Shown here piece by piece: positions 62,105 through 63,943 of a stretch of DNA of 64,000 nt (its first letter is position 1; every line of letters starts with the position of its first letter). The position numbers and the translations under genes are program-made. Under the pieces are notes generated by a model. It searched no databases. It saw only the letters and a program-made list of their open reading frames with translations, and had not been told where the DNA came from. The DNA lies in contig DRHT01000047.1 of NCBI GenBank assembly GCA_011053055.1, positions 1 to 64,000 of the forward strand, in the 5' to 3' direction. This stretch comes from Halopseudomonas sabulinigri. Lineage in GTDB: Bacteria; Pseudomonadota; Gammaproteobacteria; Pseudomonadales; Pseudomonadaceae.

Positions 62105-62482
62105 GTGTTCAATTTAGGTCATGTAGCCCTGCTGATGTTGCTTACGCTGATCGGTTGGTGGCTATTACGCAATCTGGGACTACGCGACCGAGCCATGCGG
62201 CTGGTACGCAATCATTGTCAGCGCAGCGATGTGCAGCTGTTGGATGAAAGCATCGCCCTCACCGGTATGCGGATTGCGCGCAATCGACGTGGGCGGCCCG
62301 GCCTGGTGCGCCGTTATGCTTTTGAGTTCACGGTAACTGGCGAACATCGCTACGATGGCTATATCGACCTGCATGGTCAGCAGCAGCTACAGCTAGAAAT
62401 GGCGCCACACCCCTTCCCAGGTGAAGCACCAAACCCTGAACCACAGGATCAGCACAGCGCCACCATACACCGAATACACTAA
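62105..62482 (+). CDS. DUF3301 membrane protein
   Basis: 125 residues: one N-terminal hydrophobic segment (about 6-24) and a cytosolic basic region with the DUF3301-typical RLVRNHCQRSDVQLLDESIALTG, then RRYAFEFTVTGEHRYDGYIDLHGQ. The start is GTG 62105. It precedes the CobW gene after an 86-bp gap that holds the parS-like site. Function unknown. Confidence 0.82.
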   Translation: MFNLGHVALLMLLTLIGWWLLRNLGLRDRAMRLVRNHCQRSDVQLLDESIALTGMRIARNRRGRPGLVRRYAFEFTVTGEHRYDGYIDLHGQQQLQLEMAPHPFPGEAPNPEPQDQHSATIHRIH

Positions 62483-62524: not shown

Positions 62525-62540
62525 TGTTCCACGTGGAACC
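62525..62540. other. Probable parS centromere site
   Basis: TGTTCCACGTGGAACC is a 16-bp element with a perfect 14-bp palindrome (GTTCCACGTGGAAC). It matches the parS core bound by ParB in pseudomonads. It sits in the gap between the DUF3301 and CobW genes. parS sites cluster around the chromosome origin, and the surrounding gene content is origin-proximal in P. aeruginosa. Confidence 0.85.
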
Positions 62541-62568: not shown

Positions 62569-63537
62569 ATGCTGACACAAATCCCTACACACCTGATCGC
62601 CGGCCCCCTTGGCGCAGGCAAAACCTCCACGCTGCAAAGCCTGCTGCGTCAACGGCCTAGCAAGGAGCGTTGGGCGCTACTCATCAACGAATTTGGTCAA
62701 GTAGGGTTGGACATGGCGTTGCTGGGCGAGGAAAGATCGGAGGGAGTTAGCCTGAGCGAAATACCGGGTGGCTGTCTGTGCTGCGTTAACGGTCTACCTT
62801 TTCAAGTTGGCCTTGGCAGGCTGCTACGCAAGGCCAAGCCAGACCGCCTGTTCATCGAGGCTTCTGGCCTGGGTCATCCAGCAGCACTGTTGGAGCAGTT
62901 AACCCAACCGCCTTGGCAGGGCGTTCTGGCACTGCAGCCACTGGTCATGGTGCTGGACGGGGCTGCACTGGCTGCGGGAAAACCTCTGGCAGACAGCCAA
63001 GAGCAAGCACTGCCATTAGCGGGGTTGTTGATCTGTAACAAGGCAGATCAGCTGGACACCCAGGCTAAACAGGCCCTGCAGCAGCGGTTCAGCCAACAAT
63101 CGCTGATATTTACTCAGCATGGTGAGCTGGACTGGCTGGTCCTGCCCCAGTTGAGCGTCGGCCAAACCACAACCAGCTTGCCTGAGCCGACAGGCGCTAA
63201 AGCCTTGCCTGAACTATGGATCAACCCAGCAGACTGGCGCAGGGCTCATCAACTGCAGCAAGCGCCCTTCTCCCTTGGTTGGCGCATGTCGCCTCAGCAA
63301 GTGTTCAGTCTCGTTCAGCTACTACACTGGCTCGAATCTACCGATTGGCTAAGGGCCAAGGGAGTTATGCATACCAAGCAGGGCTGGAAAGCTTTCAATT
63401 TGCTGCCTGACTCCCCACTTACATGGCGAGACAGTGCCTGGCGACAGGACAACCGGGTGGAGCTGATTACCGCTGATGGAACCATGGATGCTGGGGCAAT
63501 AGAACAAGGCTTGCGGGCTACTGTACTGGCCCAGTAA
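62569..63537 (+). CDS. CobW/COG0523-family GTPase (metal chaperone)
   Basis: 322-residue G3E GTPase: Walker A GPLGAGKTS (about 12-20), the metal-binding GGCLCC motif (about 67-72), and NKAD GTP-specificity motif. A shortened C-terminal CobW_C-like region follows. Such proteins deliver Zn, Co or other metals. The DUF3301-cobW pair is seen in pseudomonads. The gene starts 28 bp after the parS-like site; which metal it serves is unknown. Confidence 0.88.
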   Translation: MLTQIPTHLIAGPLGAGKTSTLQSLLRQRPSKERWALLINEFGQVGLDMALLGEERSEGVSLSEIPGGCLCCVNGLPFQVGLGRLLRKAKPDRLFIEASGLGHPAALLEQLTQPPWQGVLALQPLVMVLDGAALAAGKPLADSQEQALPLAGLLICNKADQLDTQAKQALQQRFSQQSLIFTQHGELDWLVLPQLSVGQTTTSLPEPTGAKALPELWINPADWRRAHQLQQAPFSLGWRMSPQQVFSLVQLLHWLESTDWLRAKGVMHTKQGWKAFNLLPDSPLTWRDSAWRQDNRVELITADGTMDAGAIEQGLRATVLAQ

Positions 63538-63568
63538 TGTAACCCTTTATTTATTGATTCTGGCTTAC

Positions 63569-63943
63569 ATGATCCGATTTTCTATACCGCTGTTTGGCCT
63601 GCTGCTGCTCGGCAGCTCACACGTTTTGGCGCAAGCCTGCCTGATCGAGTCCACGGATCAACAGGTTCCAATTCGACTATGTCAGAGCAACATAACTATT
63701 CCCAAGCATCTGTTTTCAGAGAACTTTTGCCACCCGCAAATACCTGACCGCACTTTTTCTGTCAGCATGGTCGATGCTTGCCCAGAGGGCGCCTATGGTA
63801 TCTGTGAGGGATCGCACACAGCGGGTGTGGGGTATCAGCAGTCGATTTTCTACTATAGCGACGCGGACGACGCTCCGGTTTTGCAAGCTTATTGCGAGAA
63901 GATCAGCAAGGGCGAGTGGCGAAAACCAACTTCAGCAGAATAG
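63569..63943 (+). CDS. Small cysteine-rich secreted protein
   Basis: About 124 residues with a signal peptide (RFSIPLFGLLLLGSSHVLA). The mature part has six Cys, suggesting three disulfide bonds, and reads CPEGAYGICEGSHTAGVGYQQSIFYYS. Start ATG 63569 or TTG 63554; no clear ribosome site. No family recognised. It follows the CobW gene by 31 bp. The last 57 bases of the window hold nothing recognisable. Confidence 0.6.
   Translation: MIRFSIPLFGLLLLGSSHVLAQACLIESTDQQVPIRLCQSNITIPKHLFSENFCHPQIPDRTFSVSMVDACPEGAYGICEGSHTAGVGYQQSIFYYSDADDAPVLQAYCEKISKGEWRKPTSAE

Follow-up and report, generated by a model that had tools for sequence, protein, structure and literature searches.

The window analysed here is a stretch of 64,000 nucleotides of Halopseudomonas sabulinigri (positions 1 to 64,000 of a 221-kb contig, C47, of the draft assembly). 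A short palindromic element lies near its right end, upstream of a CobW-family GTPase gene. The features of this locus are as follows.

Positions 62105-62482, plus strand: DUF3301 gene, the left border of the slot (Pfam PF11743, E 5.8e-28).
Positions 62525-62540, plus-strand copy: predicted parS site, 16-mer TGTTCCACGTGGAACC, with a palindromic 14-bp core at 62526-62539; the left-arm member of three.
Positions 62569-63537, plus strand: CobW-family GTPase gene (Pfam cobW PF02492 and CobW_C PF07683).
Positions 63554-63943, plus strand: orf129, a small open reading frame with a tblastn match in relatives, the right border of the slot.

The 16-mer was found exactly at the coordinates given in the original prediction. 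Its core GTTCCACGTGGAAC is a perfect palindrome over all 14 bp, and it lies in an intergenic gap of 86 bp between the DUF3301 and CobW-family reading frames; both properties had been claimed. The CobW-family start codon is 29 bp downstream of the core. The palindromy of the site is by itself little informative because the window contains seven perfect 14-bp palindromes. Another of them, GATTGCGCGCAATC, lies at 62272-62285 within the DUF3301 gene. The 16-mer is also an exact match to the pseudomonad parS consensus TGTTCCACGTGGAACM (PMC5098823) and is letter-identical to parS1/parS4 of Pseudomonas aeruginosa as listed in Table 1 of PMC4368675, two sites that ParB binds in vivo (PMC4368675, PMC5098823). 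This supports the claim that it is the core sequence bound by ParB in pseudomonads.

The neighbouring gene had been called a CobW gene. Its Pfam domains identify a CobW-family GTPase, but it is not CobW proper by the NCBIfam CobW equivalog model (91.2 bits against a cut-off of 332.1). The closest named GTPase among the matches listed (the best 80 of 579, from which the nearest records are possibly absent) is that of P. neustonica with 69% identity. The Pfam search of orf129 gave no match at E 0.001.

The draft genome of 3,817,978 bases (3.82 Mb, 66 contigs) was scanned for the core. The only exact copies are at 62526, 93958, and 94591 of contig C47; the remaining 65 contigs have none. Fitted to this contig, base models of order 0 to 3 predict 0.0001-0.0003 copies per 64 kb and 0.006-0.016 copies per whole genome, against the three observed. 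No copy with one mismatch was found in the draft. Seven further places with two mismatches were dropped as noise and not kept as degenerate parS sites, since the reversed pattern used as control gave 15 forward matches at two or fewer mismatches. A weak terminator-like stem was scored at the site on the minus strand (one found against 0.5 expected), but the flanking genes are on the plus strand, and a terminator was rejected for this weakness and orientation. A chance palindrome is opposed by the low expected number of copies and by the fact that 37/37 genomes of the genus carry the core in one slot. Taken together, the readings as chance or as an intrinsic terminator are vanishingly improbable.

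The three exact cores fall within 32 kb and flank parAB and dnaA on both sides. The genome-wide check proposed with the original prediction therefore gave a cluster of all three copies around parAB and the origin region, rather than a spread over the genome. The features of this region on contig C47 are as follows.

Positions 75563-76429, minus strand: parB (family match 75809-76333), with ParB_N, HTH_ParB, and ParB_C Pfam domains.
Positions 76449-77252: parA-type ATPase gene (Pfam AAA_31), adjoining parB.
Positions 90880-92379: dnaA.
Positions 93536-94630: recF, which contains two parS copies.

The gene order is parB, the parA-type gene, rsmG, and mnmG, followed by mnmE, yidC, dnaA, dnaN, recF, and gyrB. 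The window site is 13.0 kb from parB and lies 28.3 kb to the left of dnaA. The other two cores are at codons 141 and 352 of recF, 633 bp apart, and both encode Phe-His-Val-Glu-His in this genome. Exact DnaA boxes are present at 90557 and 90755, just 5' of dnaA, and three further ones at 1254, 44275, and 80140 of the contig. The cumulative GC skew reaches its minimum at about 80 kb of the contig, approximately 11 kb short of dnaA. The origin could be close to dnaA, which is 28 kb from the site, or, given the GC-skew minimum and the DnaA box at 80140, in the region around 80 kb, approximately 18 kb from the site. With either placement, the window site is on the left of the origin and the recF sites are on its right. 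A cytosine permease and cytosine deaminase block at 80304-86342, outside the window, lies between mnmG and mnmE. Because of this block, parAB is approximately 14-15 kb from dnaA, compared with the approximately 7 kb from oriC that is given for P. aeruginosa. The GC-skew minimum and the DnaA box at 80140 coincide with the edge of the block.

The products of the parA-type gene and parB were compared with known partition proteins. The adjacent ParA-type ATPase scored below the cut-off of the NCBIfam ParA_partition model. In the alignment of ParB to Caulobacter ParB (6t1f), the residues matching R173 and G201 are retained, with the numbering matched by eye; both residues are described as absolutely conserved among extant ParBs (PMC7383237). 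The genome thus encodes a cognate ParA, by its Pfam domain, and a ParB that has the equivalents of these parS-type reading residues. Conservation of these DNA-reading residues would fit the recognition of parS by this ParB. On the basis of sequence comparison, we consider it very highly probable that the element at 62525-62540 is a chromosomal parS (centromere) site close to the origin.

The conservation of the site was examined in 37 Halopseudomonas genomes. The exact core is present somewhere in 37/37, with three copies in 30 genomes, two in four, and one in three, where the three one-copy genomes are assemblies of at least 270 contigs. The reversed control pattern has matches in 1/37. The site GTTYCACGTGRAAC occupies the same slot, that is, between the DUF3301 gene and orf129, in all 37 genomes (33 exact and four with one base changed). 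A tblastn match to orf129 is on the expected side in 37/37, and DUF3301 is on the expected side in 36/37; in the remaining genome (G028) the contig ends before DUF3301. In five of those 36 genomes, which are among the 30 that carry the GTPase gene, the DUF3301 match is not adjacent but 410-845 bp from the site. The mean column identity in the slot alignment is 99% for the core and 39% over the 40-bp flanks on each side, a contrast that arises partly by construction because the sites were located by pattern; what stands independently of this is that 37/37 genomes have a core in the slot.

The two recF sites are similarly constant within the genus. A pair 633 bp apart was found in all 27 genomes in which pair positions were seen (26 tabulated and G029). 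Both members of the pair fall within a RecF match in the present genome and in 18/18 further genomes of the genus that were checked (21 loci, since three of these genomes contributed two each). The distance from the lone site to the pair is 23.7-33.2 kb in the 23 genomes that have both on one contig, 24.2 kb across contig ends in G009, and approximately 56 kb in G029.

The position of the site directly 5' of the CobW-family gene raises the question of gene control. A close orthologue of the GTPase (at least 50% identity) was identified in 30/37 genomes, and all 30 have the core before the gene (29 exact and one with a single change). The other seven genomes (G003, G004, G005, G007, G015, G021, and G028) do not have the GTPase gene around the site and yet retain the core, four exactly and three with a single change. 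Elsewhere in these genomes, a distant GTPase match is present in G003 and none in the other six. Since 7/7 genomes without the gene keep the site, the site is independent of the CobW-family gene in the genus.

These observations bear on the reading of the palindrome as an accidental parS look-alike that serves as the operator of a different transcription factor, such as a metal regulator acting on the CobW-family gene. Its place directly 5' of the gene would suit such an operator, but the draft's only two further copies of the 14-mer are both inside recF, the site persists where the gene is absent, and its spacing ranges from 2 to 503 bp. An operator of the CobW-family gene was rejected on the gene-less genomes and the variable spacing, and an accidental likeness to parS is very unlikely.

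The site could also be bound by ParB and have been conserved for the control of the GTPase gene, or of DUF3301, rather than for segregation. All 30 genomes that have a close orthologue carry the site 2-503 bp 5' of the GTPase match start, and a precedent for gene control by parS exists in P. aeruginosa, where ParB represses promoters at parS3 and parS4 (PMC5521831). The GTG of the parS core is the only in-frame ATG, GTG, or TTG from the upstream stop to the match start in four genomes, where CTG is also present. We regard gene control as the conserved job as improbable, because 7/37 genomes keep the site without the GTPase gene, the spacing to the gene is not fixed, and a crude scan showed no sigma-70-like promoter at the site. 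The four GTG cases are loci L151, L156, L158, and L159 (genomes G027, G026, G031, and G019, respectively). Because the core GTG is the sole ATG, GTG, or TTG candidate there, parS may double as the start codon of the GTPase in these four genomes. A further reading is a left-arm parS that has been selected for two jobs, namely bracketing the origin with ParB nucleation and tying a metal-handling-type GTPase gene to the segregation state. Its link to the gene would be the loading of ParB at or over the GTPase start, with four genomes apparently using the parS GTG. We hold this double role to be unlikely. The preferred reading remains a parS site that would serve segregation.

The exact core was also found in 290/298 sampled genomes of Pseudomonadaceae, of which 33 belong to this genus. 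It was absent in eight of the 298 (G047, G061, G063, G073, G114, G119, G188, and G226), and the reversed control matched in 13/298. When C/T and G/A were allowed, at least one core was identified in each of 18 genomes that represent 18 other genera, and 15 of the 18 (all but G040, G044, and G047) have two cores spaced 630 bp apart.

The loci of CobW-family relatives were examined for the best 80 of 579 matches, of which 10 were assigned to Halopseudomonas. All 10, which include H. pachastrellae, H. pelagia, H. xiamenensis, H. laoshanensis, and H. aestusnigri, have the exact core 16-141 bp 5' of the gene. Among the other 70 loci of the best 80, the exact core lies 541-2890 bp 5' of the gene in eight and a core with one mismatch 485-1851 bp 5' of it in seven; the flank examined in the remaining 55 has neither. 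In addition, 24 stretches from other genera (L177-L200) were selected for carrying a site outside the 630-bp pair. The longest reading frame that overlaps the extra site is CobW-like in eight of them and FolE2-like in six. L190, the one CobW-like frame tested, scores above the CobW cut-off, and the three FolE2-like frames tested were confirmed. In these selected stretches the extra site is often inside a gene, unlike the intergenic site of Halopseudomonas.

An identical slot was not found outside the genus, either in the 70 loci of the best 80 of 579 or in the 24 other-genus stretches. Three of the 24 (L195, L197, and L198), all outside the CobW-like and FolE2-like groups, have the extra parS 13-31 bp from the orf129 match, with the CobW-family match beyond orf129, which is the next gap relative to the Halopseudomonas slot; the extra site is elsewhere in the remaining stretches. 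A near-neighbour placement thus exists outside the genus, because the sites of these three stretches adjoin orf129. Overall, the widespread 630-bp pair is more constant than the extra site, which differs in placement from lineage to lineage.

The arrangement in Halopseudomonas is comparable to that of P. aeruginosa, where in vivo binding of ParB to TGTTCCACGTGGAACM has been reported, the enrichment around four sites extending over more than 20 kb, and where any single one of the four suffices for segregation (PMC5098823, PMC4368675). Both have sites near dnaA and parAB, and parS1/parS2 of P. aeruginosa are placed in recF (PMC5521831) as are two of the Halopseudomonas sites. However, the four strong sites of P. 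aeruginosa (in recF and upstream of PA0011 and PA0013) are all on the right of dnaA, as judged by gene numbers, whereas the third Halopseudomonas site lies to the left of dnaA, at a distance of 28 kb and on the far side of parAB. In P. aeruginosa, a parS has been reported to be advantageous from about -200 kb to +450 kb relative to oriC (PMC5098823); the window site is at about -28 kb from dnaA. Three parS sites with the sequence TGTTCCACGTGGAACA are listed for P. putida in a review table, where the oriC contig only was analysed (PMC7022226). In the literature searched, we found no paper that joins Halopseudomonas with parS, or that brings together parS, ParB, and cobW in Pseudomonas. No comparative survey of Pseudomonas parS positions was obvious in that literature, and a 2007 comparative survey of parS sites may already list such placements.

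ParB dimers would load at the window parS, and the loaded ParB would spread over the neighbouring DNA, the DUF3301 and CobW-family genes included. The window site would be joined with the two recF sites across the origin into a partition complex, whose movement by ParA would separate the sister origins. Judging from P. aeruginosa, the three sites are probably redundant for segregation. ParB-dependent repression of the PA0011 and PA0013 promoters via parS3 and parS4 has been reported (PMC5521831), and ParB may likewise mildly repress the promoter adjacent to the window site.

The site is ordinary in kind; what is apparently new is that it has a left-arm placement throughout the genus and does not depend on the gene beside it. 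The seven genomes without the GTPase are a natural control which indicates that the site is retained in its own right. The site also fixes the window on the chromosome, as had been expected: its right end belongs to the left arm, approximately 28 kb from dnaA. The findings in this work add a genus-wide set of parS positions, and the right-only layout of P. aeruginosa compared with the two-sided layout of Halopseudomonas could be used to test the importance of parS placement around the origin.
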